Positions 951-36,678 are shown, counted from the stretch's first letter. The stretch is 36,678 bases of DNA from a virus (IMGVR_UViG_3300034121_001318:1-36678), one strand, 5' to 3'. Translations and numbers: made by a program. Notes: a model not told the origin generated them from the letters alone.

Positions 951-954
951 ACTC

Positions 955-2571: not shown

Positions 2572-2574
2572 GTT

Positions 2575-18963: not shown

Positions 18964-19503
18964 ATGGCCCTGACTCAGACCCAATTAGCCAACGCCCTCG
19001 ACTCAAATCCAGCGAGCGTGTCCATCTGGAAAAGCCGGGGGATGCCGGTGGACTCGGTGGACGCGGCGAAGGCGTGGGTCGCGGCCAACATCCGCCGAAA
19101 CAAAGGGGCAAGAATAAGCGGGCTGGTGGCCTCGGAAAACCTAGCAATGGGGGCAAGGCCAAGGCTCGACCGCGCAGCCGAGGGGGAGATCCGACACTAC
19201 GAGCTATGGAAGGCAGCGGCGAACAGCCAGGACATGAACAGCCGATCAGTGGCCGAGTTGGCCGGGGCATGGCGCGACAGTCGAAAGGCAGCAGCGCAGG
19301 CCGAGCAGGAGTTGGCGGCATTTCTGGCGATGAAGAACGCAACACTCAACAAGCAAGAGACGGTGGCGGCGATTCGTTCGCTAGTCTCGGCACTGAGGCA
19401 GGATTTCTCGACGTTCCCTTGGGGCCGACAAGCCACGGAGTTGATGAAGAAGCATCTGGGGACATTGCCCAGCTCCTTGAGCGAGGCGACCGCCACGGCT
19501 TAG
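18964..19503 (+). CDS. Terminase small subunit (Nu1-like)
   Basis: This 179-residue protein begins with a helix-turn-helix (ALTQTQLANALDSNPASVSIW and a following Val/Asp-rich helix) of the Nu1/excisionase-like kind, for binding the packaging site. A long charged helix in the middle (about 80-125) would mediate oligomerisation and contact with the large subunit. It starts at ATG 18964. A longer frame over the same bases (from 18957) belongs to the large subunit's reading frame and is not coding here. Confidence 0.8.
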   Translation: MALTQTQLANALDSNPASVSIWKSRGMPVDSVDAAKAWVAANIRRNKGARISGLVASENLAMGARPRLDRAAEGEIRHYELWKAAANSQDMNSRSVAELAGAWRDSRKAAAQAEQELAAFLAMKNATLNKQETVAAIRSLVSALRQDFSTFPWGRQATELMKKHLGTLPSSLSEATATA

Positions 19504-19529
19504 ACTTTGCCTGGGGGGAGGCAAGGGCC

Positions 19530-21200
19530 GTGACTCTTGAACCTCCCAAGCTCGGGGTGGTTGAGTGGGCCGAGGGCAATCTGAAACTCTCCGAACGCAT
19601 CACCAACAAGCCCGGCAGCTACCTCACATCACGCACCCCTTATGTGCGCGAGGTGCTGGAATGCTTTGCTGATGACCGCGTGCGCCGGCTGGCCTTGGTC
19701 TGGGGGGCGCAGACCTCAAAGACCACGGCCATCATCGTGGGCATGGCCTACAAGTTAGACAATGACCCCGCGCCCTGCCTGTGGGTCATGCCGTCCACGC
19801 ACTTGGCCAGGTCATTTTCTGAAACGCGGTGGATGCCGTTGATTGACCAGAACCCAACGCTGGCCAGGCACAAAGAGCCAGACCCTGACAAATACCGATT
19901 GCTAGAGCAGCACTTTGACCGCATGAGCGTGTGGTTCACTGGCAGCAACTCGCCCGCCTCGCTTTCCTCTCGCTCGATTGCCGCTCTGTGCATGGACGAG
20001 TTGGACAAGTTCCCTGCCAAGGGCGGCAAAGAGTCGGCACCTTTGCAGTTGGCAGAGGCCCGAGTGGCCACCTATCCGCAGCATATCATCATCACGACCA
20101 GCACCCCGACATACGAGGACGGCGCGATCTGGGAGGAATGGCTCAAGGGCGACCAGCGCAAATACTTTGTGCCGTGCGCCGGCTGCGGCGAAGCCTTTGT
20201 CATGGAGTGGGAGACAATCAAATGGTCGCAGGAGGCCAAGCAAGATTCCGCGTGGAACATGGAAGCCGTTGCAGAAACGGCGCGATGCCATTGCCCGGCC
20301 TGCAACCACGCGCACACCGAGGCCGACAAGGCGCAGATGTTAGAGCGCGGCGAGTGGCGGGCAACTGACCTTGCCGCCGAGCCAGGGCGGCGCAGCTACC
20401 ACCTATCGTCACTCTATGCGCCGTGGCGCAAATGGTCGGATCTGGCCGTCAAATTTCTTCAAGACCGCGAGACGCCTGGCGGGTTGCAGGATTTCTTCAA
20501 CCGTGAGCTGGCCCTGCCTTGGAAAGCCGCTGGCTCCCTTATCACCACGGCCATGATCCGCGAGCGGGTGGACGCCTCGCCGCGCTACACCATCGGAGAG
20601 CCGCCCGAGGGCAAGATGCTGGGCCGCATCATGTCCGTGGACGTGCAGCAAACCGAATTGTGGTGGATCATTCGCGAGTTGCACGAAGACGGCAGCAGCT
20701 ACTTGGTTGATTACGGCGCAGCGATCGGCTGGGACTTGATCCTTGAAAAGTTTCGCCACTACAAATGTTTTAAGGGGGTGGTTGATTCGGGCTACGCCGC
20801 CAAGACCCCGGCGGGGGTTTACGATTTTGTCGCCCGCTCGGGTGGCCTCTTTTGCGCGGCCAAGGGGCGCACGGTTAGCCAGGGACTGCGGGAACCGTGG
20901 AAGTTCCAACAGATTCTCGGGGCCGGCCACAATATCTGGATGCTCCAATTCGACGCCGAGTTTTGGCAGGCACGGCTTTACCACGATGTGCTGCGCGATG
21001 GGCGGGGCAAGTGGTATCTGCCGCGAGACATTGCCAAGGATTATGTGACGCAGCTGCAGGGCGAGGCGCTGGTCGAGAAAGAAGGCGTGGCCAAGTGGAC
21101 CCGACTAGGAGAAAACCATTTGGCCGACTGTGAAAAGATGGGGTTGGTCCTGATTGATTCCATCATGTCGCAGTATTCGGCGGCGCAGCCCGCCTCTTGA
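19530..21200 (+). CDS. Terminase large subunit, GpA-like
   Basis: This 556-residue packaging motor and nuclease starts at GTG 19530 with GGAGG eight bases upstream. An open frame reaches back to 18957, but that part is Gly/Arg-rich and overlapped by the small subunit gene. The ATPase has Walker A GAQTSKT (59-65) and Walker B ALCMDELD (152-159). A zinc-like cluster has Cys216, Cys219, Cys255 and Cys258. The nuclease has Asp371 (MSVDVQQ) and Asp419 (GVVDSGY), with NHLADC near the end as a third acidic site. This is the lambda gpA family, which makes cos ends. Confidence 0.92.
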   Translation: MTLEPPKLGVVEWAEGNLKLSERITNKPGSYLTSRTPYVREVLECFADDRVRRLALVWGAQTSKTTAIIVGMAYKLDNDPAPCLWVMPSTHLARSFSETRWMPLIDQNPTLARHKEPDPDKYRLLEQHFDRMSVWFTGSNSPASLSSRSIAALCMDELDKFPAKGGKESAPLQLAEARVATYPQHIIITTSTPTYEDGAIWEEWLKGDQRKYFVPCAGCGEAFVMEWETIKWSQEAKQDSAWNMEAVAETARCHCPACNHAHTEADKAQMLERGEWRATDLAAEPGRRSYHLSSLYAPWRKWSDLAVKFLQDRETPGGLQDFFNRELALPWKAAGSLITTAMIRERVDASPRYTIGEPPEGKMLGRIMSVDVQQTELWWIIRELHEDGSSYLVDYGAAIGWDLILEKFRHYKCFKGVVDSGYAAKTPAGVYDFVARSGGLFCAAKGRTVSQGLREPWKFQQILGAGHNIWMLQFDAEFWQARLYHDVLRDGRGKWYLPRDIAKDYVTQLQGEALVEKEGVAKWTRLGENHLADCEKMGLVLIDSIMSQYSAAQPAS

Positions 21201-21216: not shown

Positions 21217-21480
21217 GTGACGGACGCCGCCATTTTATCCGAAGTATTCAGCGCAGCCGAACTGGCGCAACTCAAGGCGTCCTGCAAAGCGCAGATCCTG
21301 TCCGGCGGGGCCAGCCAGGCGTTTGTTGTCAGCTCCAGCGTTGGCGGGCGCAGCGTCACACTTCAGCAAACCTATTCCTGCTGGGATATGCTGGGTCTAA
21401 TCGAAACAGCTTTGGCCATCAACGCCGGCACGATTGGCAACTCCCGCGTCACGCAGATGCGCTTTCCCAATAGAACATGA
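21217..21480 (+). CDS. Head-tail joining protein, gpW-like
   Basis: This 87-residue protein lies between large terminase and portal, the place of lambda W. It has two helices (DAAILSEVFSAAELAQLKAS) and a short beta hairpin with SSVGGRSVTLQ, as in gpW-type proteins, then a further helix. The start is taken as GTG 21217; TTG 21211 is possible. It overlaps the portal gene by 4 bases. It would sit at the portal vertex and allow tail attachment. Confidence 0.6.
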   Translation: MTDAAILSEVFSAAELAQLKASCKAQILSGGASQAFVVSSSVGGRSVTLQQTYSCWDMLGLIETALAINAGTIGNSRVTQMRFPNRT

Positions 21481-22997
21481 AGACCAAATTTGTTGACCGC
21501 GTTGCCGCCGCCTTTGGCTTTTCGCGCATGATCGAGGCCGTCAACCACCGCAGCGAAGAGCGCGGCTGGGTTTACGCTCAGGCGCAAGACTCCAAAGTTG
21601 ACCTTTCCTCCTATGACCGCACCCGCCTTATGGCATTATCGCGCAAGTGTTTCTACAACAACGCGATAGTCAGGGGCGCGGTGCGTGATAAAGCGATGTA
21701 TTCGGTGGGCAGCGGCATCGGTATCCGCCCGCAAGCCATGTCTGGCGACCAAGCGTGGGACGATGCTGCCGAGGCTTGGTGGGAAAATTGGGCGCGCTCG
21801 CCCGAGATCAGCGGGCGGCACGATATGCGCTCGCTTCAGATGTTGGTTTCCGAAGCCATTGACCGCGACGGTGAAATCTTTGCCGTCCTAACCGCCAAGA
21901 GCGATGGCGCTCCCGCCGTGCAGATCGTCGAGTCTCACCGCATTGAGTCGCCCGACACCGCAGCCAACAACAACGGCGTGGTGGATGGCGTGAAGCTGGA
22001 CAAGTTCCAGCGTCCGCTGGGCTATTTCATCGGTGAAGGCGACGAATACCCGCGCAGACACCGCGAGGTAAAAGCGGACGTGATGCTCCACGTCTACGAG
22101 CCCGAACGCTCCGACCAGGTGCGCGGCTATCCTGCCATCGGCGTGGCGCTCAACAGTGTTTTAGACCGCGACGAGCTGCTCCGCTTTGAAATGATGGCGG
22201 CAAAGGCCGGCAGCAGCATCGGCCTCGTTATCAAAAACGCCACGGGGAACATTGGCGCGGAAGGATTCCTTGGCGACTTCAGCAAAGACAGCAACGGCAA
22301 CCTGACCCGCGAAAGCATTTTCGGCGGCGGGCTTGTGCCCAGAATGAAGAACTCAGAGGACATTCAGTCTTTCGTAATGAACAGGCCGAACGAGAAGCTG
22401 GACAAGCACCTCGAGCAATACATTCGGGCAGCGGCCATCGGCTTGGGCCTGCCTTACGAGTTTGTCTGGGACACCAGTGCCATCGGCGGCGTGGCGCAGC
22501 GGTTTATTATCCAGAAGGCCGCAAGATGCTTTGCCGCTCGCCAGGATGTGCTGGTCAATGCGTTCCTTTCCAAGCTGTGGCGCTACGCTATCGCTCGCGC
22601 TATTTCTCGCCGCGAATTGCCAATGGTCGCCGGCTGGCAGCAAGTGGGATGGCAGACGCCGCGCTCGATCACCGTGGACGTGGGCCGCGAGGCGACCGCC
22701 CGGCGCGATGACGTGAAGGCGGGCTTGATGACCCTTTCGGACTACTTTGGCGAGCAGGGCATTGATTGGAAAGAGGCGGTGGCTGAGATTGCTGCGGAAC
22801 GCGAGTTTGCTGCCGACCTTGGCGTAATGATCGGAGTGGAGCAGGCCCAGCCGCAGCCGCTCTTGGTTGATGAGCCAGAAGCGCCCGCCGTGGTCGCGCC
22901 ACAGTTGGAAGCCAAGGAAGAACCAACCGAACTTGCCCTGCCTAAAAAGCGCAAGCGTCTGTATCGCCGCAAGAAGACTGAGAAGCCGACCCCTTGA
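21477..22997 (+). CDS. Portal protein, lambda gpB-like
   Basis: This 506-residue protein has the lambda-portal pattern: an N-terminal helical part (YDRTRLMALSRKCFYNNAIV), a wing with EAWWENWARSPE, a conserved DRDGEIFAVL strand (about 128-137), LHVYEPERSDQVRGYP (about 203-218) and a long stem helix after GLPYEFVWDTS. The C-terminal 70 residues are polar and basic, ending in a Lys/Arg cluster. Twelve copies would form the DNA entry ring. The start overlaps the gpW-like stop by 4 bases. Confidence 0.93.
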   Translation: MKTKFVDRVAAAFGFSRMIEAVNHRSEERGWVYAQAQDSKVDLSSYDRTRLMALSRKCFYNNAIVRGAVRDKAMYSVGSGIGIRPQAMSGDQAWDDAAEAWWENWARSPEISGRHDMRSLQMLVSEAIDRDGEIFAVLTAKSDGAPAVQIVESHRIESPDTAANNNGVVDGVKLDKFQRPLGYFIGEGDEYPRRHREVKADVMLHVYEPERSDQVRGYPAIGVALNSVLDRDELLRFEMMAAKAGSSIGLVIKNATGNIGAEGFLGDFSKDSNGNLTRESIFGGGLVPRMKNSEDIQSFVMNRPNEKLDKHLEQYIRAAAIGLGLPYEFVWDTSAIGGVAQRFIIQKAARCFAARQDVLVNAFLSKLWRYAIARAISRRELPMVAGWQQVGWQTPRSITVDVGREATARRDDVKAGLMTLSDYFGEQGIDWKEAVAEIAAEREFAADLGVMIGVEQAQPQPLLVDEPEAPAVVAPQLEAKEEPTELALPKKRKRLYRRKKTEKPTP

Positions 22998-23854: not shown

Positions 23855-24769
23855 ATGGCCTCGATTTCCAATCTCAACGACGACGTAATCAGCAGCGCCG
23901 CTCTCAAAGCGTTCGTTGATTCCCTCCATCCCCTGTCTGCCTTCAGCGTTAACTACAACGCCGAAGCCGCACGCAAGGGCGAAGTGGTGAGCATCCCGCT
24001 CATCTCCTCGATCACCGCCTCGACTTTCAACAACACTTATGAAGGTGCTGACGGAGACGTGACCCTCACGGCCCGCGAAGTCACCATTGATAAGCACTTC
24101 CTGTCGACCGTCGACTTCACTGACACCCAGTGGGCCAAGTCTTCGGCTCTCACGCCTCAAATGCTGGCCGAAATCGGCGCAGAGCAGGGCCGTGCAGTTG
24201 CCCAGGCGTTCATCAGCTCCGTCTGGAGCATGATCACCACGGCCAACTACGGCGCGGCGGTGGCCAGCTTCACCTCGGCCTCCTTCAGCATGGCGGAAGT
24301 CCGCAAGGCTCGGCTTGAGTTGACCAAGGCGAAAGCCCCGCAGAATGACCGCTCGCTCTTCTTGGAGCCCGAGGCCTACGACGCGCTGCTGTCCGACAGC
24401 ACCAACATCCTCGCCAACTTGAACTTCGGTTCTGAAGGCGTGCGTGAAGGTGTGGTTCGCCGCTTGGCCGGCTTGAACGTCTACGAGTCCACCCTGATCC
24501 CGGCGACCAACGTCGGAACCAGCATCACTCTGGCCGCGTTCGCGGTGCATCCTTCGGCCATTGCCGTGGCGATCCGCACCCTTCAGCCCCAAGCGCCTTC
24601 AGAGTATCTTGAGGCCCGCACCATCGTTGATCCTGTCAGCGGCATTGGGCTCGGATACCGCCGTCACTATAATACGGCAAATGGCACTCACTTCTTGAAT
24701 TTTGAGGTAGTCGGAGGCTACACCTACGGTGTGACCGGCGGCCTTAAGATCTTGGCCAAGAAGGCCTAA
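23855..24769 (+). CDS. Major capsid protein
   Basis: This 304-residue protein has no Cys or signal peptide and a composition typical of capsid proteins. It follows protease-scaffold and precedes a strong terminator, which fits a highly expressed shell protein. Segments such as the helix with LTPQMLAEIGAEQGRAVAQA and the later RSLFLEPEAYDALL loop fit an HK97-fold coat protein. The fold is inferred from context and general pattern rather than a specific motif. Confidence 0.88.
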   Translation: MASISNLNDDVISSAALKAFVDSLHPLSAFSVNYNAEAARKGEVVSIPLISSITASTFNNTYEGADGDVTLTAREVTIDKHFLSTVDFTDTQWAKSSALTPQMLAEIGAEQGRAVAQAFISSVWSMITTANYGAAVASFTSASFSMAEVRKARLELTKAKAPQNDRSLFLEPEAYDALLSDSTNILANLNFGSEGVREGVVRRLAGLNVYESTLIPATNVGTSITLAAFAVHPSAIAVAIRTLQPQAPSEYLEARTIVDPVSGIGLGYRRHYNTANGTHFLNFEVVGGYTYGVTGGLKILAKKA

Positions 24770-24856: not shown

Positions 24857-26608
24857 ATGACCACACAACATTCTTTGGCGTTGGTCGCTATCACTGGCAA
24901 TAGCGAGTCGTATATCGGGCGTTTTATTGAGAGCTTCCAGAAACTCACGCCGCACATCTACATCGTGCGGGCCTGCGGCGGCAGGGAACCAGACCGCTCC
25001 CTAGACATTGCCCGCGAGATGGGCTGCAAGGTGGGCGAATACAAAAACGCCGACGCCTTCCAGTTCTGGGACCATGTGGACAACTTCGCCAACGCCCGGC
25101 AAATGGCCACCGACATGGCCCAGGCAGACGGCCACCAGTGGCTAATGTGGGCTGATACGGACGATATTATCGAGCAGGAGTCGTGCGACATTATCCGCCA
25201 GCACCTTTCCGAGACAGCTACCACGACCACGTTGGCCATGATTCCCTACCGGCTGACCAACAACGGACTCAACCTCCTCCGCGAACGCATCTGGAAGACT
25301 GGCACGGCGCGCTGGGAGGGTGCGGTGCATGAACACCTTGAGCCATTCGACAAGTCAGGAGACGGCCAAGTCCGCTGGGAGGACGCCCGCATCGTTCACG
25401 CTCCTGACGAAAAGAAAGACGCCGCTGCCGAAAAGCAAGGCAACAGCCGCAACTGGCGCATCCTGTCTAGCCAGCCTGGCTGGGAGAAAGACCCGCGTTG
25501 GCTGTTCTACGGCAGCCTTGAGCATTTTGGCATGAAGGACGATGCCCGAGGCATGGAGCTGGCCATCGAGGCGCTTAAGCATGAGGCCTTGTCGGGCGAC
25601 GAACGCTACGAGTTGTATCTGCAACTGGCCATGCGGACACCTGTGTTTGCCGCCAAAAAGTCGCTTTTGCATGAAGCCTACAAGGTCAGCCCTTGGCGCA
25701 GGGAAGCCTTGGCGCAGCTCGCCGCGACCAGCTTGGACAACAACGAGGAGCAAGACGCCTTGGCTTATGCTCGGGCCTTTATGTCGCTGCCAGTGCCTGA
25801 GATTGTCCCGTGGACCCATCGCCCGGTGGTTTATGGATTCGGAGGCGTTGGCCTCTATGCCTGCACCCTGCGCGCCAACGGCGACACCAAGCGCGCCGAC
25901 CAGTTTGAATTGGATTGGTTTAAGAAGTGCGGAGGCAAGATTAGCGTTTGCCACCCTACTCGGGGCCGTCCAATGCAAGCCGCCGAGACGCGCAAGAAAT
26001 GGCTAGAGGCAGCCAAAGACCCGCAAAGCGTGGAATACATCTTTGGATTTGCCGAAGACGATGACGAGACGCGGGACATTTTGGGGCGCTTCAAGCACGC
26101 ACTGTCACCCGCCGGGCTCATGGATCAAGTGGGCGGCAATGCTGTCGCCAACTACAACGCGGCGGTCAAAGCCTCCACAGGCCACATCATCGTGACCGCG
26201 CAGGACGACATCGAGCCGCCTCTTTTTTGGGATGAGCTTGTCTGGCAGGCGCTGGAGCCGCATCTAAAGCGACCCAAGGTTCTTGGCGTGAAGGACGGCC
26301 ACCGCAACGACGGCCTCATGGTCACTTTCATTTGCACGCGGCCAACCCTCGGGTGGCTTGGCAACGGAGGCGGCATCTTGTCAGGCGATTACCACGGCAT
26401 CTATTCTGACACCGAGTTTTCCCACCGCGTCCGCAAGGCGGGCATTGTCTTGGACGCCGACATTGTGTTTTTGCACAACCACCCGGCCTTTGATCCCAAA
26501 GTTCCAACAGACGCCATTTACGATGTTGAGAACAGCAACGAGGCTTACAAATTCGGGGCAGAAGTCTTTAAACGCAGAAACCCTGACGCCTTTGACTCCA
26601 AGCCATAG
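24857..26608 (+). CDS. Double-domain glycosyltransferase (GT2-like)
   Basis: This 583-residue protein starts at ATG 24857; GTG 24842 is a weaker option. Residues 6-190 follow a GT-A family 2 plan: LVAITGNSESYIGRFIESF, a FANARQMA motif (77-84) and the metal-binding WADTDDIIE (Asp100, Asp102). The middle (about 215-350) is a run of helix pairs resembling TPR repeats. From about 362 a second GT-A-like domain begins (ISVCHPTRGRP), with NYNAAVKASTGHIIVTAQDD (Asp450, Asp451). It lies behind a terminator inside the head-tail gene order, so it may be a cargo gene. Virion or host surface glycosylation is likely. Confidence 0.8.
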   Translation: MTTQHSLALVAITGNSESYIGRFIESFQKLTPHIYIVRACGGREPDRSLDIAREMGCKVGEYKNADAFQFWDHVDNFANARQMATDMAQADGHQWLMWADTDDIIEQESCDIIRQHLSETATTTTLAMIPYRLTNNGLNLLRERIWKTGTARWEGAVHEHLEPFDKSGDGQVRWEDARIVHAPDEKKDAAAEKQGNSRNWRILSSQPGWEKDPRWLFYGSLEHFGMKDDARGMELAIEALKHEALSGDERYELYLQLAMRTPVFAAKKSLLHEAYKVSPWRREALAQLAATSLDNNEEQDALAYARAFMSLPVPEIVPWTHRPVVYGFGGVGLYACTLRANGDTKRADQFELDWFKKCGGKISVCHPTRGRPMQAAETRKKWLEAAKDPQSVEYIFGFAEDDDETRDILGRFKHALSPAGLMDQVGGNAVANYNAAVKASTGHIIVTAQDDIEPPLFWDELVWQALEPHLKRPKVLGVKDGHRNDGLMVTFICTRPTLGWLGNGGGILSGDYHGIYSDTEFSHRVRKAGIVLDADIVFLHNHPAFDPKVPTDAIYDVENSNEAYKFGAEVFKRRNPDAFDSKP

Positions 26609-26611
26609 AGC

Positions 26612-26944
26612 ATGGCCACCCAACTAGATACGGCGCACGTCCTTGGCATTGGCGCAATTACTGACCTTGGCGGCGAGGTGGTCACGATTGGAGCCGTGTG
26701 CTTCAAGGCCATTGTGGGCAGCGTGGACGAGAGGGACGAGTTGGCCGAGGGCGGCGTGCGCCAGATCCGTAGCGTGCAAGTCGGGCTTCCGGCCAGCGTC
26801 TTTGAGCCGAGCTTTGCGAACATCAACGCCGCAGTGCCGACGATCTGGAGCCGCATTACAGTGCGCGGGCAAGAGCTGCAAGTGCTGGCGGTTAACAAAG
26901 ACGAGGCCGTGGTCGAGATCACTGCCGGCGGGCTGGCAGAGTAA
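26612..26944 (+). CDS. Head-tail connector-like protein
   Basis: This 110-residue beta-rich protein lies where lambda-like phages have gpFII-type connectors, just ahead of the tail completion and tail terminator genes. A segment SRITVRGQELQVLAVNKDE near residues 80-98 fits the small barrel with a hairpin seen in such proteins. It starts three bases after the glycosyltransferase stop. Support is mainly context. Confidence 0.6.
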   Translation: MATQLDTAHVLGIGAITDLGGEVVTIGAVCFKAIVGSVDERDELAEGGVRQIRSVQVGLPASVFEPSFANINAAVPTIWSRITVRGQELQVLAVNKDEAVVEITAGGLAE

Positions 26945-26952
26945 GGGCTTCT

Positions 26953-27837
26953 ATGGCCGCAATCAATTTGACCATCAGCCTGGACGAGCTGCGCGAGTTT
27001 GTGCCGAAATTCGTCAACGCCACCAAAAGGGAGGTGTCGCTTGAAATGCGCCGCCAGGGGCGGCTTTTAGTCGCGGGTGATAGTGGCTTTGGCTTGGTTT
27101 CCATCACCGCCCCACAGGGCGATGGCGACAGCGCAAAGGCCATTGGTGATTTTGCCGTGGCCCGAGACATTAGCAAAGTGTTTGCCCAGCGCGGCACTAT
27201 CGCAGCCATCCTCGGGCAAAACGGTAAGCGCGGGGACCAGACCGCCTTCAATCGCTATATCCGCAACGGCGAGTTGCAAAAGGCCAAAGACTTTGTGAAT
27301 GGCCAAGCGCCAACCTCTGTGCAAGTAAGCGGCTACGTCCGCAACGGCAAACCAGTTAAAGCCTACTCGCAGACAAGGCAGGCCAGCGTTTTTTCTGACC
27401 CTCGCCTTGGTCGAATTGAGCACATTGCCGACGAACCAAGCGCAATGCTGCACCAAAGCCGCCGTGGTTCTCGGGGGAAAGTGGGGCGCTCGCAATGGGC
27501 GCAAATCGTTCTAAAGAAGACGGCCTACAATCAATATGTGACCGACACGATTAAAAGGGTCGGCTTACTCAAAGCCGGGTGGGCCAAGGCCGCAGACCAA
27601 GCCAATCTTGGAGTCAGTGTGCCACGCTTTGTCAGAAACAATGTGGACCGCGCTATGGGCAAGGGCCGCGTAAGCGACGGCGACCCCTACAACATGTTCG
27701 TTGAGTTGATTAACGAAAACCCAGTGGCCTCGACCAAGATCAACAAGGGCAGCATTCAGTTCCTTCTAAACCTCCGCAAAGAAAACATCTTGGCCGAATT
27801 TGAAAAACGGGTTGGCAAGGTGGCAAAGGCAGCATGA
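26953..27837 (+). CDS. Tail completion or minor tail protein (gpZ/gp10-like)
   Basis: This 294-residue protein lies between the connector and tail terminator genes. It starts ISLDELREFVPKFVNATKRE, like the helix of HK97 gp10/lambda gpZ-type proteins, and is basic throughout with repeated Arg/Lys/Asn segments. The stop overlaps the next ATG by 4 bases. It probably acts at the head-proximal tail end. Confidence 0.6.
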   Translation: MAAINLTISLDELREFVPKFVNATKREVSLEMRRQGRLLVAGDSGFGLVSITAPQGDGDSAKAIGDFAVARDISKVFAQRGTIAAILGQNGKRGDQTAFNRYIRNGELQKAKDFVNGQAPTSVQVSGYVRNGKPVKAYSQTRQASVFSDPRLGRIEHIADEPSAMLHQSRRGSRGKVGRSQWAQIVLKKTAYNQYVTDTIKRVGLLKAGWAKAADQANLGVSVPRFVRNNVDRAMGKGRVSDGDPYNMFVELINENPVASTKINKGSIQFLLNLRKENILAEFEKRVGKVAKAA

Positions 27838-28724
27838 TCAACCGCGAAATCGAAGCCAGCTTTGCCGATTGGATCACCTCGGGCGTCAGCGGCACGTCTT
27901 TAGCCGGGGCGTCTATCCGTAGCGGCGTGCCTCCCGAGTCGCTGTCTTACCCTGCCGTGATCGTCCAGGCCAATTCCAGCGAGGTCTTGGAGGGCGGGGC
28001 GAGGCAAGGCTCTCGGATTAACGTGGACATCAGTGTGGTTAGTTCCGCGAGCAACGAAAGCGGCTGGCAAACCGCGCACAAAAACAGGGTGGGGGCGCTG
28101 GCCGAGCTGCTGGACGATACCAACACCAACCCGAGCTTGGCCTCGATCAACGCCGCGCAAAGCGATTACACCCTTTATGGCTGGGCGCTTTCCGAGTTGG
28201 CCAGCGAAACCTCGGCCAACCACCAAGCCGACAGCTTCCGCCTGGCTGCCGTGGCTGGCGACCGCATTGGGACCACGCCGACAGGGCCGACCAACGCCGA
28301 CCCGCAGGACTTCAGCCTGCGCCATGAGGTTGAGCAAATCCTGACCGCGCACTTGGTGGCCGAGTTGCCCGAGGCCGTGACTGACGATTATTCGGTGCAG
28401 CCCTACTACAACGAAGCGCCTGCCGCCGGCTCGCGCATCGTGGCAGCCTGCCTGTCAGCGTCCAAACCCTTCCCGCAGTTGGCCCGCTACCAAGCGCAGG
28501 CCACCGTTCACGTCATCACCAATGGGGCCGATTCCACAGGCCACGTTGCCGCCGTCAGGCAAGTGCAAGACACGCTGCGCCTCTTGACCACGCAGGACTT
28601 TACCTCGGCCAACGTCACTGTGGCAGGGGTCATTGAGGGCTCGCACACCAACGATACGGACAGCAACCGCATTTCTGATGTGCTGGCTCTGAGTCTCTAC
28701 GCGCAAGTAAACCAGGGAAGTTGA
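27834..28724 (+). CDS. Tail terminator-like protein with internal duplication
   Basis: This 296-residue protein looks like two tandem gpU-like domains: residues 1-140 and 160-296. Each has an N-terminal helix (IEASFADWI; VEQILTAHL), a strand region (SYPAVIVQ; SRIVAACL), a beta strand followed by helix with NRVGALAELL or RQVQDTLRLL, and an end strand after SETSANHQADSFRL or NDTDSNRISDVLAL. Usual members are about half this length and act as a hexamer. A fused dimer might form a ring from three chains. It is followed by the tube protein. Confidence 0.65.
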   Translation: MINREIEASFADWITSGVSGTSLAGASIRSGVPPESLSYPAVIVQANSSEVLEGGARQGSRINVDISVVSSASNESGWQTAHKNRVGALAELLDDTNTNPSLASINAAQSDYTLYGWALSELASETSANHQADSFRLAAVAGDRIGTTPTGPTNADPQDFSLRHEVEQILTAHLVAELPEAVTDDYSVQPYYNEAPAAGSRIVAACLSASKPFPQLARYQAQATVHVITNGADSTGHVAAVRQVQDTLRLLTTQDFTSANVTVAGVIEGSHTNDTDSNRISDVLALSLYAQVNQGS

Positions 28725-28726
28725 CA
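28721..28726 (+). promoter_or_regulatory. TTGACA box before major tail gene
   Basis: TTGACAC overlaps the tail terminator stop (28722-28724) and ends 14 bases before ATG 28741, with CGAGGG between. Confidence 0.45.
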
Positions 28727-28740
28727 CCGCCCGCGAGGGC

Positions 28741-29301
28741 ATGGCTATCGTCTATGGCGTCTCTGGGGCTTTTTCTAAGTCCACCTCTAAAACCTTTGAG
28801 AAACTGCTTGTTGCGGACAAGAACGGCGTCACCACGACGATCCTTTCCAAATACGTCCGCACGGAGACAACCACCGAAACGGTTGGCACTACTTTCGGCG
28901 CAGGGGCGATCGGTTCAGATGACGTTCTCAACGCAACCATCACCGCCCAGGTGGACGAGCAGCTTATAGAAAGCGGCAGCGCCAGCACTGCTCCACCGGC
29001 CATTCGCTTTTACAATCCTCGCGCCGAGGCGTCTGCTCAGATTTTGGGCGATTTCACGGGGTCGAGCTTCACTTTAGACGGAATCACCTTTGTGACCTTG
29101 AGCGCTGAGAAGGCCGAAACAGCCGGCGATGTGGTCAAGACCAACATTCGCGGCACGGCCATCAACACGGCCACCGTGGCTGGCTCAACCCTGACCACTG
29201 GCGACCATTCGACAACTTCAACCATTCGGGTTGAAAAGCGGCTTTCCAACACTGATTACAACCGCACCACCGTCACCACGGTTGCCTTTGCTGGATCGTA
29301 A
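28741..29301 (+). CDS. Major tail (tube) protein
   Basis: This 186-residue Thr- and Ser-rich protein is mostly predicted beta strand and lies between the tail terminator and the chaperone/tape measure pair, the usual place of the tube subunit. Length and composition fit a siphovirus tube protein without an added Ig-like domain. No Cys is present. The call is from synteny and composition. Confidence 0.75.
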   Translation: MAIVYGVSGAFSKSTSKTFEKLLVADKNGVTTTILSKYVRTETTTETVGTTFGAGAIGSDDVLNATITAQVDEQLIESGSASTAPPAIRFYNPRAEASAQILGDFTGSSFTLDGITFVTLSAEKAETAGDVVKTNIRGTAINTATVAGSTLTTGDHSTTSTIRVEKRLSNTDYNRTTVTTVAFAGS

Positions 29302-29313
29302 CCGCCAAGGGCT

Positions 29314-29913
29314 ATGGATAGCCTGGCCGCAGAAGCGTTTCTAAACGCAAGCCACAAGGTTTATGGCCTCGCCATGCGCCCGCTGTCGCTGGGTCACGCC
29401 TTTGTTCTAGAAAGCCTCGGCAATCCCTTCTACCACGGGCGCCTCGGCACACCCGAGGAGCTGCGAGTGGCCGCGTGGATCTGCGCCAACCCACCGCTTT
29501 CCGCGCTTCGCCTAGGCGGGGCTGGCAACTTGTGGTGGCGTTACCGCACCCGCAATGCCGATTTTGAGCGAGAGGTGGCCCGCTGGAAGGTCTTTGTTGA
29601 TGACTTCTGCACACCACCGCAGCTTTGGACAAAAACCCCAAAGCCGGGCGAAAGCCGCGCCGAGCCGTCGCGCATCCCGCACCAGATTTCAACCGCCGTG
29701 CGCCTGATGCGCCTCGGCATGAGCGAGCGCGAGGCATGGCAAACTCCAGTGGGAGTGGCGTCCTGGTATGAGGCTGCCGGCTACGAAACCGAAAGCGGGT
29801 CACGCCTAGACATTGTGACCGACTCCGAGCGAGTCGCCATCCTGCGTCAAAAGATAAAAGAGCAACAGGCCGCAGCGTCTGACATCGAGGGTAAGGACGA
29901 AGGCAATGGCTGA
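29314..29913 (+). CDS. Tail assembly chaperone-like protein
   Basis: This 199-residue helical protein overlaps the tape measure start by 8 bases. The segment YGLAMRPLSLGHAFVLESLG (17-36) is a pattern I recall from tail assembly genes of siphophages. A C-terminal region (about 165-199) is Gln/Glu/Lys-rich. Lambda uses a frameshift to extend this protein, but there is no open alternative frame of useful length here, so a single product is expected. Confidence 0.55.
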   Translation: MDSLAAEAFLNASHKVYGLAMRPLSLGHAFVLESLGNPFYHGRLGTPEELRVAAWICANPPLSALRLGGAGNLWWRYRTRNADFEREVARWKVFVDDFCTPPQLWTKTPKPGESRAEPSRIPHQISTAVRLMRLGMSEREAWQTPVGVASWYEAAGYETESGSRLDIVTDSERVAILRQKIKEQQAAASDIEGKDEGNG

Positions 29914-31387
29914 AGTAAAAGTAAAAATTACAGCTCAGAACGAGGTGCAGACAGGTCTGCAAGCCTCGCTGGCCGAGGTGCGCCAATTTGCGGGGCAGGC
30001 GCAAAAGGAAATGCAGACGGCCATGCAGATGCCCGCCCGGCAGCCGGCGCAAGAGCGGGTGGCTCCTACCTTTAAGATAGACATTGGCGACTACGGCCTT
30101 GAGCCGCTGCGGCAAATGCAGGAGGAGCTTAAGAGAGTTAGGCAATCAGCTCAAGAGGCGCTTGACCCATCGCCAGCACAAGACTTTGCCGGGGGCATCG
30201 GTGGCGTCATTGGCCGATTTGCAATTCTAATCGGGGTGGCGGCTACAGTCGGCAAGGTCATCGCTTCTGCTTTTGATACGCTGAGTGCGGCAGTTAGCAA
30301 ATCCACAGAGCTGCAAAAACAATTTGCCGCCTCGTTGGAATCTGCGGGAAGCCAAACCACGCTGTCTGGAGCTATTTCCGAATTCAAACAGTTAAGCTCA
30401 ATTGCCGAGGCAACCCAAAAAACTTTAGATGACACTTTTAGCAAAACAAAACTCGGGGCATTAGCAAATATAAGCAAAGGCAACTTCGGACCAATGTTGG
30501 CCAGAAGTGCAGACGCGCTTACAGGAGGAGCAGTTTCTAATCTATTGGGCGGAAACGCAGACCAGCAACGCGAGCAATCCCGACAAGCATTTTTGGCCTC
30601 TTTGCAGAGGCAAAGAATAGAGGCTGAAGAACTGGCCGCCGCTGGCGGCGATCCAAAAGCACAAGATACCGTAAGGCAAATGCAAGAAGCGCGGGAGCGC
30701 AGAAGGCAGTTTGACGTTGGGATTGAGGGCAGCGGCCTTAACCCAGCACAAGTGGCGCAAGCTAGGGCCGACATGGAGGCAGTCATTGCTGCTAATCAAG
30801 CCTCGACAGCCGCCCAAGAGCGACTAGACACCGAAAAAGAAATCACCCGCGAAAAAGAGCGTCAGCAAAAACTGGAATCTGGAACTCGCGCTGGCAACGT
30901 GATCGGCAAGCAGCTCGGGCCAGGCAGCTTTGAGGGCATTGAGGAACTGAACCGCGAGCGGGAAAGCGTTCGCAAGGATGCCGAGCAGACAGCAAAAGAG
31001 GCCGAAAGGAAAAAGCAAAAGGCCGCCGAATTTAACTTAAACACCAAGCTCCTTGAAGCTCGGGCAATGGGAGACAAGGCCACCGAGGAGTCTATCCTTC
31101 AAGGGCAAGACATGGCCAAGGGGCTTGAAGTAACCGACAGCTTTGAGGATGCGGCCAACTTCGCTGCTGCCGCCTCCGCGCTTCGCGAGCAACAAGGAGC
31201 CAAAGGGCAATCAGGATCATTTGGAGCGTCATCCCTCCAGCGCATCGGCTTTGCCTCAAACGAGTTCTTCGACACACGGAGCAAGGATGACACTGCCGCG
31301 CAAATTAAGACCGTGGGCAATGTGGTCAAAGAAATTGGCCAGCTACTGAAAAAGGAAAACGTCCTACTAATGAAATCGGAGTTTTAA
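29906..31387 (+). CDS. Tape measure protein
   Basis: This 493-residue protein has long helical, Gln/Ala/Glu-rich coiled-coil segments, with a hydrophobic stretch at about residues 94-130 (GGIGGVIGRFAILIGVAATV) typical of tape measure proteins. Length is short for the family. At about 1.5 angstrom per residue a tail of roughly 70 nm is predicted. It follows the chaperone gene by overlap. The middle (30350-30600) is more A/T-rich than its surroundings. Confidence 0.85.
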   Translation: MAEVKVKITAQNEVQTGLQASLAEVRQFAGQAQKEMQTAMQMPARQPAQERVAPTFKIDIGDYGLEPLRQMQEELKRVRQSAQEALDPSPAQDFAGGIGGVIGRFAILIGVAATVGKVIASAFDTLSAAVSKSTELQKQFAASLESAGSQTTLSGAISEFKQLSSIAEATQKTLDDTFSKTKLGALANISKGNFGPMLARSADALTGGAVSNLLGGNADQQREQSRQAFLASLQRQRIEAEELAAAGGDPKAQDTVRQMQEARERRRQFDVGIEGSGLNPAQVAQARADMEAVIAANQASTAAQERLDTEKEITREKERQQKLESGTRAGNVIGKQLGPGSFEGIEELNRERESVRKDAEQTAKEAERKKQKAAEFNLNTKLLEARAMGDKATEESILQGQDMAKGLEVTDSFEDAANFAAAASALREQQGAKGQSGSFGASSLQRIGFASNEFFDTRSKDDTAAQIKTVGNVVKEIGQLLKKENVLLMKSEF

Positions 31388-31389
31388 CC

Positions 31390-32037
31390 ATGTCACAATT
31401 TGAAACAACAGGCGGCGGATTTATCGACAGCGGCGACAGGCGCATTGAACGCAAGGTGGTTGTTGCCGTAGGTGGCGCGGCCCTAACGGTGCCAGCTTCT
31501 GATCAGGGGTTTCCGCTAAGTAACGTGAGCGTGACGCAAGAGCCGGGCGGCGTTCGTCGCGGGGTCTTTGAGTTTAGCCGGGCAGGGGAGGGCGGGGCAG
31601 GGTTTAACCAATACGGCAAGCGGATAGAGCTGACCGGCGGAACCCGCGAGGTGCCGATTCAGACGCACGTTAAGTTTGAAACGATGACCGACGCGCAGGT
31701 TGTCCAAGTTCAAGAGGCAGTTGACCAAGGCTCGGACGCAGTTCTGACCTCATTTACCCCCGACCAAGAGCTTCTCTATTCCTTCCTGTCTCGCAAAATT
31801 GAATACGTCTTGGCCCCCGCCGTAGTCGGGCGGGTTACCGAGGTCGAATCAAATTTGCCGTCGCTGAACATCATTGCCAAGGTGGCCAATCCATCCGAGC
31901 TAAACGCCCCTAACGACACATTTTGGATTTGCACCGCCGTCACGGCTTCTCCCATTGGCGACCGCTATGAGGTAACGCGAGAATACACCTTAAATTTCAG
32001 CAGCTGGTCAGACGTAGAAGAGCTTTATTCGTGGTGA
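31390..32037 (+). CDS. Distal tail or minor tail protein
   Basis: This 215-residue beta-rich protein starts two bases after the tape measure stop, a place where distal tail proteins usually lie. It has a central segment with GFNQYGKRIELTGGTRE and ends in a Trp-containing strand (FSSWSDVEELYSW). No named family motif is seen. The role is inferred from gene order. Confidence 0.6.
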   Translation: MSQFETTGGGFIDSGDRRIERKVVVAVGGAALTVPASDQGFPLSNVSVTQEPGGVRRGVFEFSRAGEGGAGFNQYGKRIELTGGTREVPIQTHVKFETMTDAQVVQVQEAVDQGSDAVLTSFTPDQELLYSFLSRKIEYVLAPAVVGRVTEVESNLPSLNIIAKVANPSELNAPNDTFWICTAVTASPIGDRYEVTREYTLNFSSWSDVEELYSW

Positions 32038-32041
32038 GCTT

Positions 32042-32680
32042 ATGGCGCAATTCGATTCCATTCGGTTCACGCCTGGCCGTCCACTGACTAAAGAGCTCGG
32101 GTCCGAGCGGCTTAATGCCATCATCACCGAGATCAAGCGCAACAAGCCCAAGGGCGAGCGCGGTATCACGGTGCGGCAGGATGGCACTGGCACCTATATC
32201 GGTCTTGCCGCGTCTTTACCTCGAGGAGGCGCCTCCACCCCAAGCACCCGGCAACCTTGGGACTTGCAGGCCCAAATAGATCCCGAGGCTTCGCCCGAAG
32301 ACGAGACACCGCCTTACCTGATCCGTGTCCGCCCTGGCACGCTCAACGGCATCCTGCCTGCAAATTGGGACGAAGAATTTACCTATCCTGGCACTGGACT
32401 GTGGTATGCCAAGGCCGTGATTGCCACGGACGGGGAGGCGGTCACGGGGGTCACTATCTCAATCAATGGAACCGCGCCCACCGTGCAGCAGCCGGTGGAG
32501 TTTGGCATTGCAAGCTCTGTGCAATACTTGTTTGGGCTGTTTTCTGAAGGCCAAGCCTATCGCGTGATAGGCTCGGGGCATATTGTGCTGCCAACGAGGA
32601 CGTGGCTGGTCACCAGCGCCGACCCTGCGGCTTCTGCTGGCCAATCGCCCTACGACATCTATTACCTTTTGGGGCCATGA
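32042..32680 (+). CDS. Tail tip-associated protein
   Basis: This 212-residue protein begins with a helical, basic stretch (LTKELGSERLNAIITEIKRN), then a Gly/Pro linker, then a beta-rich domain from about residue 90 to the end. Its stop overlaps the start of the Ser/Thr-rich gene by 4 bases, so the two probably act together. No family is recognised. Confidence 0.55.
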   Translation: MAQFDSIRFTPGRPLTKELGSERLNAIITEIKRNKPKGERGITVRQDGTGTYIGLAASLPRGGASTPSTRQPWDLQAQIDPEASPEDETPPYLIRVRPGTLNGILPANWDEEFTYPGTGLWYAKAVIATDGEAVTGVTISINGTAPTVQQPVEFGIASSVQYLFGLFSEGQAYRVIGSGHIVLPTRTWLVTSADPAASAGQSPYDIYYLLGP

Positions 32681-34482
32681 TCGAGTGGACTATACCCAAA
32701 GCTGGCGCTTTAACTGGCTACACCGAAGAGACTCAAAGCAGCTCAACAAGTTACACACTAATACTTGAAAGGGTGGGCAGTGGTGATGCGGAGATTTATA
32801 GTGACAGCGGCGAGTCGGCATTCTTTGGAAGCAGTTACACCGTCCACGGCGATACAGGCTCAACGACCTTTTGGAGTTCGTCCTCCAGCGGAACCGACAC
32901 CCATTTCACTTTAGGAGGAACAGACGGTTACAGTGGGTCAGGCTCGTCTTCACACACCCAGCAAACCACGTCAGCCCAATTATCTGTTGCCGCTCAAACA
33001 AGCACAACAGACACGCGACAACTGTTTTTTGCATCAACCATCCTTACAACCGTCGGGGGGTATGTTTGGACGTATGAATCAAGCAGTTTTTATCAAAACC
33101 CGACAGTCCTGACTATTTACAGCACTGAAACCGCCTCGGCTTCGGAAACATTTGATACGACAACCGAGTCAGGGACCACGCTTGAAGGAGGGCTGGCCGA
33201 CACAATTTTGCAAGCGGCGGACTCGGAGGTCATTTGGTATTACAGTGCAATTACGAACTGGTCTGGCCTAAGCGCAGCAACCAACAGGGCTACTTCAACA
33301 ACGCGAATCACGATTTCTCCAACTTATTCCACGGCCTTGCTTCTAAAAGTAACGGAACAAACAAGCGGCACGGCCACGACAGTTGCGGGGAACGTCTCAA
33401 CACAGTGGAGTCGTTCGGAAAGCTCTTATTCGACCAACTACACAACGGCAATACCAACGCAAGAAACCGAAACGGTAGTTGTATCAACGCGCTTGCCAAA
33501 CGTCACCGCAACACAAACGCGGTATTGCCTGACTACGCAAACCGCGTCTTTAGAGGCCACCGTGTTTGAGAGTCAATCAAGCTCCATTGCAGCAACTGAT
33601 GGAGCAACGCAAGTCGGGACGCTGGCCTTTTCTACTTATAAAAATCCTGGCGCATTTTACAGCGGGAGCTTGGAGTGGGACGCATTAAGAACAGAAAACA
33701 GCGTTTACACCTTTACAAAGTCTGCGCCAATAGCCTTGTGCCGGGCGTATCAGTCCTCAACGGCTACTTCAAACATTAACACCACTTTTGACGTTGATTA
33801 CACTTCGTCAGAAGGTGGTGCCAGCGGAACTTCCAGCGGGAAAAACGTAGACCAAAACTGTTACTTGCCGTTGCCGCCATCTTGCGTCGCCTCAATAGGC
33901 GAATCCCTTCAGCGTTCAAAATTCGTGGTGAAGGCTGCAAAAATAGGGACGGCCAAAGGGCTCTGGTTTGAAATTGACGTAGCGACAACACTGCAAGATG
34001 TGACCTACGCATTCCAAGCCCGCAGCGCCTTGACCACGGTCTTTCCTGCGGAATCACGGGGGGTCGCCACTTACAACAGTGACAGTGTGACCTTTACAAG
34101 ATCAACCCAGCTAACAGGACAAAGCGAATCAACGACAACAACATCAAGCGCCCTGCTGGAATTGGCAGGAGGGTCTACCACCACAACGCTTGCCCCCGGC
34201 CCAATTAGTGCTTGGGGCGGCTATCCGGGCGAGGGCGAAACCTTTGCAAATGTGGCTGGAGGCACTGGCGGAGTTTACCGCAACCGAATCGGGGGCCAAA
34301 CCATAGCCATTCAGCCAGGAGCAACGACCTTTTCAAATTCTTCTCCGCTGTCTTTTTATGAGCCGATTTACGGCATTGTCGCCCCGCTTGGATTTGACGA
34401 GCAAACGCAACCTTCTTTTGGCTATTGGGTGGCAGATCGCAACAGCACGGCCCTGCCGCCCGTGATGCCGCCTGACGCTTGA
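32677..34482 (+). CDS. Very Ser/Thr-rich tail tip or fibre protein
   Basis: This 601-residue protein starts at ATG 32677 (ATGA overlap); a longer frame to 32602 re-reads the previous gene. Serine and threonine are exceptionally frequent: 33 of the first 90 residues by my count, and the bias holds through most of the length. It looks like beta-structured repeats, with few Lys/Cys and many Tyr. It is the largest virion gene after the tape measure, in the place of a tip or receptor-binding protein. It lies directly before glycosyltransferase and cupin genes, so it is a natural candidate for O-glycosylation. Confidence 0.65.
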   Translation: MIEWTIPKAGALTGYTEETQSSSTSYTLILERVGSGDAEIYSDSGESAFFGSSYTVHGDTGSTTFWSSSSSGTDTHFTLGGTDGYSGSGSSSHTQQTTSAQLSVAAQTSTTDTRQLFFASTILTTVGGYVWTYESSSFYQNPTVLTIYSTETASASETFDTTTESGTTLEGGLADTILQAADSEVIWYYSAITNWSGLSAATNRATSTTRITISPTYSTALLLKVTEQTSGTATTVAGNVSTQWSRSESSYSTNYTTAIPTQETETVVVSTRLPNVTATQTRYCLTTQTASLEATVFESQSSSIAATDGATQVGTLAFSTYKNPGAFYSGSLEWDALRTENSVYTFTKSAPIALCRAYQSSTATSNINTTFDVDYTSSEGGASGTSSGKNVDQNCYLPLPPSCVASIGESLQRSKFVVKAAKIGTAKGLWFEIDVATTLQDVTYAFQARSALTTVFPAESRGVATYNSDSVTFTRSTQLTGQSESTTTTSSALLELAGGSTTTTLAPGPISAWGGYPGEGETFANVAGGTGGVYRNRIGGQTIAIQPGATTFSNSSPLSFYEPIYGIVAPLGFDEQTQPSFGYWVADRNSTALPPVMPPDA

Positions 34483-34484
34483 CA
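34479..34484 (+). promoter_or_regulatory. TTGACA box before second glycosyltransferase gene
   Basis: TTGACAC overlaps the stop of the Ser/Thr-rich gene (34480-34482) and ends 16 bases before GTG 34501, with CGA directly before it. Confidence 0.45.
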
Positions 34485-34500
34485 CGGCTGCCGCTGCCGA

Positions 34501-35523
34501 GTGCTGGCAATAGCGACATACGCAACCAAGAGTTACTTCCACTGCTGGCCGCAATTTTTGAGGAGAATTGCCGCCGCCGCCGGACACCACGCCGAGGCGC
34601 ACTTTATCCTGGCTACTGACCAGAGTGACGAAGCCAAGGCTGCGGTAGAGGTGGCCCGACACGAACTGCCCGAGGGCTGGCGCATCCAAGCCGTGCAGCT
34701 TCCGCTTGAGGACGGCGGGGTGGAGGGCAAGGACTACAAAGAGCCAGCACAAATGCGGATTGCCGCGCTTCAAGGTGCCGCTTTCGCCGCAGCCCGAAAG
34801 ATCCGCGCCACGGCCTTGTGGTCGGTCGAGGCCGACAACCTTGTCCCGCCCGATGCGCTGCGCGTGGCCGAGTGGGCGCTGGCCATGCCTACCGAGGACG
34901 GCTCGCCTTACTATCAAGTGGCGGCGGTCACTTACCCCAACGGACTGTTCCTCGGAGGCAACGGCACGCCGCAGAATCCCATTGCCGAGGACTTCACCGA
35001 GAAGGAGCGCAAGCTGCCGGCGCGACTGATCCTCGCCTTAGAGGCTTGCCGCGCCCGCCTTAAGGACTGCCGGGACAAAGCCATCGGAGAGCGAGAGGGC
35101 AAGCGGCTGGGGCGGCTGGCCGAGCGGGTCCGAAAATGCCCACCAGACGGCAATGTCTTTGAAGTGAGCGGCAAACACGGTTGGAGGCGCAGAGGATGGA
35201 TGGACTTTGCTTACCCCGGCATTGGCAGGGGGGCCATTGTGCCGTCCGATTGGTGCGGCCTTGGCTGCACCCTGATGTCTGCCCGTGCGCTGGCCTTGGC
35301 CAGCTTTGAAGGCTACCAGGGCAAAGGCACGCAAGACCTATTCCTTTGCTGGCACAGATGGCATCCCGCCGGCCTTCGCGTTGCCGCTATCCCGCACACG
35401 GCAGCCGACCATGTGAAGCGTGATGCGAAGGGCGAGATCGTCCACCACCGGGCGTATCACGAAACGGAAGGCGAGTATCGCGGCCACCTTCGCCAGCGGC
35501 ATCAACCGTGGATGCCATGTTAG
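34501..35523 (+). CDS. Glycosyltransferase-like protein
   Basis: This 340-residue protein starts at GTG 34501. It has a GT-A-like first strand (MLAIATYATKSYFHCWPQFL), then ILATDQSDE, and a metal-site-like SVEADNLVPPDAL (108-120, Glu110 and Asp112), the DxD-like place of family 2 enzymes. A His/Trp-rich C-terminal part includes GTQDLFLCWHRWHPAGLRVA, like the acceptor side of these enzymes. Residues 165-210 form a charged helical insert. It overlaps the RmlC-like gene by 7 bases, which supports a shared sugar pathway. Confidence 0.7.
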   Translation: MLAIATYATKSYFHCWPQFLRRIAAAAGHHAEAHFILATDQSDEAKAAVEVARHELPEGWRIQAVQLPLEDGGVEGKDYKEPAQMRIAALQGAAFAAARKIRATALWSVEADNLVPPDALRVAEWALAMPTEDGSPYYQVAAVTYPNGLFLGGNGTPQNPIAEDFTEKERKLPARLILALEACRARLKDCRDKAIGEREGKRLGRLAERVRKCPPDGNVFEVSGKHGWRRRGWMDFAYPGIGRGAIVPSDWCGLGCTLMSARALALASFEGYQGKGTQDLFLCWHRWHPAGLRVAAIPHTAADHVKRDAKGEIVHHRAYHETEGEYRGHLRQRHQPWMPC

Positions 35524-35945
35524 CCGAGATCCGCCAGCTCACCGCGCACCTCGATGAGCGTGGACGCCTGACCGAGATCTTCCGCGCCAGCGACGATACG
35601 CACGGCTTCGGCCAAGCATACATCACCACGGCCTCGGCTGGCGTCATCAAGGCGTGGCACCGCCACCGTGAGCAGTGGGACCGCTGGTATTGCGTGGGCG
35701 GCGCAGCCAAGGTCGGCATTTGGGACGCGCAAGCCATGCGCGGCGAGACGATCATCCTTGCCGCCGACCATCCGCAGCTTCTGGTCATTCCGGCAGGATT
35801 GTTCCACGGGTTCACGCCCTGCCACGGACACCGCGAGGCTTCCATTCTCAACTTGCCGAGTCACGAATACGACCCTGCCGATCCAGATGAAGACCGCCGA
35901 GGGCCGTTTGCCTTCCCATTTCAATGGGACGTTCAGTCTCGCTAA
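35517..35945 (+). CDS. RmlC/WxcM-like sugar epimerase or cupin
   Basis: This 142-residue cupin starts at ATG 35517; GTG 35508 is an alternative. The family plan is visible: ERGRLTEIFR (14-23), AYITTASAGVIKAWHRH (34-50) with His48 and His50, a YCVGGAAKVGIWD strand (58-70) and IPAGLFHGFTP (91-101). The C-terminal DPADPDEDRR resembles dTDP-4-keto-sugar 3,5-epimerases. It would alter an activated deoxysugar. The rest of a dTDP-rhamnose pathway is absent, so host enzymes would have to supply the substrate. Confidence 0.75.
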   Translation: MLAEIRQLTAHLDERGRLTEIFRASDDTHGFGQAYITTASAGVIKAWHRHREQWDRWYCVGGAAKVGIWDAQAMRGETIILAADHPQLLVIPAGLFHGFTPCHGHREASILNLPSHEYDPADPDEDRRGPFAFPFQWDVQSR

Positions 35946-35972: not shown

Positions 35973-36500
35973 ATGAAGGTCTACGTCAACTTGGATTCGC
36001 GTGAATTTGTGGTCAGCCCCGTTCTTCTTCAGCGGGTCAGCACGCTGTCTTTTACCCGCCGTGACGTGGTGCCGGTCGAAGTTCAGTTTGTGCGCTCCGG
36101 CGCGGTGGTCGAGCTGGCAGCCGGCGCAACAGGCGCAATGGGACTCAAAAAGACGTTTGCGGGCAGCTTCCTCGCGAATGACGCAGGCTTTACCAAAACA
36201 GGAACAGGCTCGACCACGGTTTACCAGTTCGACCTCAACCTAAACACAACCAACCTCAACGCGGAGTTCCCGCTGGATACCGAGGAAAGCATAACGGCGA
36301 AGGTGGAAATTGAGTGGACCGAATCCGGCACGACATCGAGCACGCTGCCCACCTCCGCAATCGTTTACAATGACGTGATCCGGGGCGGCGAAGGTGTGCC
36401 GACTGTTACCGCTGCCGCCTCCTTTAAGCTCCTGGCTCCCGACTCAAGCCTCTGGACCGTCTCCATCGACAACAACGGCGTCTTGACCGCCACCAAATAA
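35973..36500 (+). CDS. Baseplate or fibre-like structural protein
   Basis: This 175-residue protein is predicted to be almost all beta strand, with a start (VYVNLDSREFVVSPVLLQRV) and a segment RRDVVPVEVQFVRSG that recall BppU-type N-terminal domains. It has a Gly/Ala-rich turn (AAGATGAMGL). A C-terminal part (about 145-175) forms a short strand pair. It is followed after one base by the signal-peptide protein and is similar in size and style to the gene at 582. A virion adaptor role is likely. Confidence 0.55.
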   Translation: MKVYVNLDSREFVVSPVLLQRVSTLSFTRRDVVPVEVQFVRSGAVVELAAGATGAMGLKKTFAGSFLANDAGFTKTGTGSTTVYQFDLNLNTTNLNAEFPLDTEESITAKVEIEWTESGTTSSTLPTSAIVYNDVIRGGEGVPTVTAAASFKLLAPDSSLWTVSIDNNGVLTATK

Positions 36501-36501
36501 C

Positions 36502-36678
36502 ATGACCACACGCCTTATCATCCTCCTCGCCGCCGCCTTGCTTTGCTTGGCCGCTCCTTTGCAGGGGCAGACGATCAAAGCCGTTGCATTCAACACCACG
36601 AACAACACAGTCGTATCGACCAACCAAATTGCGTTCACAAGATTGGCGGCTCTTGGAGGAACCGCAGAAATTCCGGGT
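36502..36678 (+). CDS. Secreted or fibre-like protein, 5' part (continues at 1-403)
   Basis: The gene starts at ATG 36502, one base after the stop of the 175-residue gene upstream, and continues across the circle join to the stop at 403, giving 150 residues. The N-terminus looks like a signal peptide: Thr-Thr-Arg is followed by about fifteen hydrophobic Leu/Ile/Ala residues and a small-residue region ending near Gln-Gly-Gln. A Sec signal is unusual for a protein in the tail-fibre region of a phage. The rest is rich in Asn and Thr. The intact frame across the join is independent support for circular closure. The function is not recognised. Confidence 0.75.
   Translation, partial: MTTRLIILLAAALLCLAAPLQGQTIKAVAFNTTNNTVVSTNQIAFTRLAALGGTAEIPG
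36552..36678. repeat. 127-bp terminal overlap, right copy
   Basis: This is the right-hand copy of the exact repeat at 1-127. It lies inside the coding sequence that starts at 36502 and should be counted once when the genome is treated as a circle. Confidence 0.97.

Follow-up and report, generated by a model that had tools for sequence, protein, structure and literature searches.

A candidate phage-encoded system for virion protein glycosylation, with a transferase gene paired with a Ser/Thr-rich neighbor

Why would a phage keep glycosyltransferase-like genes among its head and tail genes, and which protein might receive the sugar? The question is raised by the window analyzed here, the whole 36,678-nt stretch of the IMG/VR virus record IMGVR_UViG_3300034121_001318:1-36678, which derives from a freshwater phage. 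An earlier note had proposed that two transferases, an RmlC-like cupin and a very Ser/Thr-rich protein form one sugar module within the head–tail block, and that they decorate a virion protein, most likely the Ser/Thr-rich one. All four ORFs were found where it had placed them, as was the structural setting.

The phage and its probable host

The gene order of the window was that of a tailed phage, with TerL (18957-21200), portal (21477-22997), major capsid protein (23855-24769, + strand; PHROG 283/267 major head protein, 1e-24) and tail genes up to ~32680, followed by the sugar module. A tyrosine integrase gene at 6823-7956 indicated that the phage is probably temperate. The next gene after the cupin (35973-36500, +) encodes a 175-aa protein whose likeness to BppU-N was judged by eye; downstream of the module lie this BppU-like gene and a tail-fiber gene (in relatives, and also at the opposite end of the window). 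Window genes 582 and 955 have homologues that, in relatives such as L025, share a locus with transferase 2 and the 35973 gene. Since the counterparts of window 1-3400 and 35973-36678 lie in one locus in relatives, the window probably represents a circularly permuted, near-complete genome.

The nearest isolate by terminase was Akkermansia phage Moulinsart (32% identity), in which no transferase is annotated downstream of the capsid region. The transferase 2 search also matched a Chthoniobacter flavus MAG (L172), and a scan of 388 genomes of the phylum of this MAG revealed one further Verrucomicrobiota genome with transferase 2, G096 (39% identity). The G096 prophage (L283) is located on a 70.8-kb contig, the first ~39 kb of which are host-like and are followed by an integrase-like gene (recognized by eye) and phage genes. 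Because of this prophage and the terminase affinity to an Akkermansia phage, a Verrucomicrobiota host is likely; however, the host is not settled, since two betaproteobacterial MAG contigs matched as well.

The hexamer TTGACA occurs on the + strand at window positions 21197, 22994, 24835, 28721, 34479 and 35950, 20–23 nt 5' of several late-gene starts. Across 21 related loci, the distance from TTGACA to the start peaked sharply at 20–23 nt in comparison with three control motifs. The hexamer exhibited no overall enrichment, and no -10 box was seen near the sites; it is perhaps a start-associated sequence.

Two glycosyltransferases of different families

Transferase 1 (24857-26608, +; 583 aa) consists of two GT-A-like domains and a middle linker. 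Its score for Pfam Glycos_transf_2 was 28.4 bits against a cut-off of 23.3, residues 7-310 matched PHROG 13126 ('beta-1,4-glycosyltransferase', 3e-14), and residues 361-521 weakly matched PHROG 14945 ('glycosyltransferase', 0.001). The motifs WADTDD and QDD were invariant across 8 homologues, down to 50% identity. With a Pfam score above cut-off and a conserved acidic DxD-type motif, transferase 1 is classified by sequence as a family-2-like GT-A glycosyltransferase, in agreement with the earlier note.

The same label for transferase 2 (34501-35523, +; 340 aa) could not be proven by sequence, as searches of Pfam, PHROGs, NCBIfam and PDB by sequence gave no match for the protein. Structure prediction, which the earlier note had suggested as a check, supported the label: the AlphaFold model (pLDDT 80.5, pTM 0.76) gave its best Foldseek matches to COLGALT1 (E 5e-9, with a modest TM-score of about 0.47) and LH3, further matches to chondroitin polymerase and GnT-I, lower ones to GalNAc-T1/T2, and many to viral transferases as well. 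Alignment of 33 homologues revealed that E110, D112, D279 and H304 are invariant, and E110-x-D112 (ExD) ends strand 105-110, the strand on which GT-A enzymes bear DxD. The modeled protein thus has a GT-A fold in which the fourth strand is followed by an acidic metal-binding motif. It shares this fold and motif with the protein O-glycosyltransferases COLGALT1, LH3 and GalNAc-T1/T2, but differs from them in its low identity (8–15%), TM-scores of about 0.4–0.47 and length of 340 aa. GT-A enzymes transfer sugar from a nucleotide sugar and are usually metal-dependent; such transfer is predicted for transferase 2, although its fold does not reveal which donor and acceptor it would use. Its family, for which Pfam, PHROG and NCBIfam hold no model, appears to be new. 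Profiles of both transferases found no match when searched against PDB sequences. INPHARED protein searches with transferase 1, transferase 2 or a distant transferase 2 likewise gave none, and a distant transferase 1 gave weak, partial matches in three records.

Neither transferase contains a hydrophobic or membrane segment. This bears on the possibility, also raised in the earlier note for blocking of superinfection, that the enzymes act on host surface glycans to exclude superinfecting phages or to change serotype, and that they lie among structural genes by coincidence. Serotype-converting transferases are classical genes of temperate phages, and the integrase makes this phage a probable member of that class. 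However, a GtrABC serotype cassette comprises a membrane-anchored transferase and a GtrA flippase, whereas both transferases here lack a hydrophobic segment and no GtrA was detected among the window proteins scanned; moreover, the genes lie in the late structural block and not beside the integrase, and transferase 2 is the fixed partner of a Ser/Thr-rich gene (see below), so that we regard action on host glycans as improbable. Glycosylation of phage DNA bases as an anti-restriction measure would accord with the frequent occurrence of phage transferases that act on DNA (as cited in PMC12619734), but no nucleotide hydroxymethylase or base hydroxylase was present among the window proteins scanned and the genes accompany late structural genes instead of replication genes, which leaves this idea very little credibility.

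Each transferase gene and its neighbor

Transferase 1 was located just downstream of the capsid gene in every capsid-sharing contig of sufficient length, and the order was kept in L023, in which the capsid and the transferase were 41% and 49% identical to those of the window, respectively. A second lineage (L236-L276), with a transferase ~35% identical to transferase 1, carried this gene directly 3' of a 282–283-residue capsid-like ORF (weak Pfam Phage_capsid_4 match, 20.5 bits) in all checkable loci. Adjacency to the capsid gene, which is the sole evidence bearing on its acceptor, suggests that transferase 1 may act on the capsid protein or extend a glycan there.

For transferase 2, viral contig scans yielded 116 relatives, 80 of which were kept, and a distant query yielded 64. 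Gene co-occurrence, a further check named in the earlier note, was pronounced: 75 of 76 distinct homologues had an adjacent ORF with at least 20% Ser+Thr (mean 30%), compared with 13 of 470 low-Ser/Thr proteins from the same loci used as control (2.8%), although homologous loci share ancestry and these counts are not independent. The single exception among the 76, L184, has only ~80 bases of contig upstream. Under a stricter length rule the neighbor was present for 69 of 70. In 9 loci, the Ser/Thr-rich gene was encoded on the other strand and pointed towards transferase 2, with adjacency intact. The pairing persisted in distant relatives (39–59% identity), across unrelated capsids and exchanged capsid and tail genes. 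Because it recurs in dozens of contigs, the arrangement is not attributable to chance.

A conserved 212-aa tail-region protein (32042-32680, +) precedes the Ser/Thr-rich gene and travels with the pair. In a reverse test starting from homologues of this protein, transferase 2 was found in 26 of 29 loci, which are all of the testable ones, the other 3 being contigs that end just after the 32042 homologue. The G096 prophage retained the order of 32042 homologue, Ser/Thr-rich ORF (660 aa, 31%) and transferase 2, followed by a protein with a Ser-rich tract (L283:11174-12562). The latter gene is the counterpart of window 35973-36500, and its product contains a ~330-residue tract of the SSDSSLSSES type and 55% Ser+Thr overall. 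Ser-rich tracts of this type are glycosylated in bacterial adhesins, for instance in SD-repeat proteins, which have dedicated transferases, SdgA and SdgB (PMC3794999); the combination of a Ser-rich protein and a dedicated transferase, and the tract of the prophage protein, resemble that system, but SD-repeat proteins belong to the bacterial cell wall, and the likeness is one of analogy, with no claim of homology.

The Ser/Thr-rich protein itself (32677-34482, +; 601 aa), the proposed acceptor of transferase 2, contains 31.4% Ser+Thr overall and 50% locally, in line with its earlier description as very Ser/Thr-rich. Comparison with its relatives revealed a hypervariable sequence (15–53% identity to the window protein) in which a Ser+Thr content of 21–39% is kept, even where identity drops to 15–30%; mean column identity was 21%, and only short ends (MISWT..., W..RNS..LP) were conserved. 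The transferases beside these proteins were 82–96% identical. AlphaFold prediction of the protein together with 15 relatives gave no reliable fold (pLDDT 35). Alternation of Ser/Thr residues, a sign of beta-fibers, reached weak z-scores, with a weak excess at distance 2. Per-column Ser/Thr variance lay far above that of shuffled sequences, and was set aside as evidence since the aligner itself favors such columns. Composition alone is no proof of glycosylation because a high Ser/Thr content is frequent in beta-rich virion proteins in any case, as in the putative tail tube protein (window 28741-29301; 28.5% Ser+Thr). By analogy with mycobacteriophages, the tail tube may be one more acceptor.

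A narrower alternative is that just one of the two virion proteins receives sugar, or that the two transferases cooperate on one glycan of one acceptor such as the capsid or tail tube, and that the Ser/Thr-rich protein is an unmodified beta-fiber tail protein. The composition of the tail tube would agree with this, as would the excess at distance 2, which fits strands, and the location of mycobacteriophage glycans on capsid and tail tube (PMC12619734, PMC12363180). Nevertheless, transferase 2 and its Ser/Thr-rich partner occur as a pair in phages in which neither transferase 1 nor the capsid type of the window was detected, and we consider this narrower alternative unlikely. Instead of the single sugar module of the earlier note, the arrangement is more aptly described as two pairs that can be separated, one of transferase 1 and the capsid gene, the other of transferase 2 and the Ser/Thr-rich gene. 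The central proposal of that note, glycosylation by the phage of its own virion and most likely of the Ser/Thr-rich protein, gained strong comparative support from the recurrent pairing, with acceptor, sugar and linkage still inferred.

The tailoring slot and a possible role in tail decoration

The cupin gene (35517-35945, +; 142 aa), the start of which overlaps the end of the transferase 2 gene, had been called RmlC-like. The likeness was borne out by Polysacc_synt_C (39 bits, above cut-off) and by PDB 3ejk 'dTDP Sugar Isomerase' (E 9e-5), but identity as an RmlC epimerase was not, as the dTDP_sugar_isom score (23.5 bits) fell below the cut-off of 27. Like RmlC dTDP-4-dehydrorhamnose 3,5-epimerase and FdtA, the cupin has invariant residues (H48, H50, H97 and Y118), whereas with its 142 aa it remained below the Pfam cut-offs of both families. 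With regard to the catalytic His-Asp dyad of RmlC and its accompanying Lys and Tyr, H48 and Y118 were invariant, and no Asp or Lys equivalent was assignable from the alignments. No RmlA, RmlB or RmlD companion was found among the window proteins scanned.

L026, like the majority of distant relatives, has no cupin gene beside transferase 2. In relatives, the slot after transferase 2 contained the cupin alone, a DUF3431 protein (PF11913, 50–55 bits) between transferase 2 and the cupin (L201:7022-7711, L194, L215 and L200), neither, or another ExD-containing protein ('WMEPDAVP'; L100, L178 and L185), and in L065-type loci the cupin was located 5' of transferase 2. A long ORF follows transferase 2 in L083:10852-12519, L078:10744-12519 and L085:10897-12531; its reading as an N-terminal GT-like part and a C-terminal sulfotransferase-like part (PRCGTT) was based on motifs seen by eye, and was discarded as the ORFs had no Pfam or PHROG match. 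The cupin is thus an optional accessory with a putative sugar-tailoring reaction, and the variable slot is as would be expected were related phages to differ in the sugars that they attach.

Taken together, we consider it reasonably probable that the phage O-glycosylates its virion proteins in the cytoplasm by means of its own enzymes, one of them a transferase dedicated to a hypervariable, mucin-like protein of the adsorption region. Late in infection, transferase 2 would move sugar from a nucleotide-sugar donor to Ser/Thr side chains of the neighbor protein, before or during tail assembly, while transferase 1 would modify the capsid or extend a glycan on it, and the sugar would be varied by the cupin or, in relatives, by whichever enzymes occupy its slot. 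Such glycans might mask the particle, allow lectin-like binding, or stiffen a mucin-like rod at the tip of the tail. More tentatively, a Ser/Thr-rich protein conserved in composition, its own transferase family and an exchangeable tailoring slot could constitute a mucin-like system that yields different tail glycans; the cupin, DUF3431 and second ExD-type proteins might, with similar reserve, be its exchangeable parts.

Mycobacteriophages Che8 (gp110), Corndog (gp38) and Myrna are reported to glycosylate capsid and tail-tube proteins by means of phage-encoded transferases, the genes of which lie near the genome 3' end in Che8 relatives (PMC12363180, PMC12619734 and PMC11256854, citing Freeman et al. 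2023). The present system would operate in a similar way, with transferases of the phage attaching sugars to proteins of the virion. It differs in that transferase 1 follows the capsid gene, transferase 2 has a dedicated, hypervariable Ser/Thr-rich partner and belongs to an undescribed family, tailoring genes are adjacent, and the likely host is another one. The pairing of a transferase gene with a Ser/Thr-rich gene also appears to be new.

Phage virion glycosylation has so far been reported from a few mycobacteriophages. If the proposal is true, these environmental phages would provide a second, widespread case, in which enzyme and acceptor are named by gene pairing and a new transferase family comes with a testable substrate. 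This would suggest that phages vary the glycans of their tails besides the sequence of their tail proteins.
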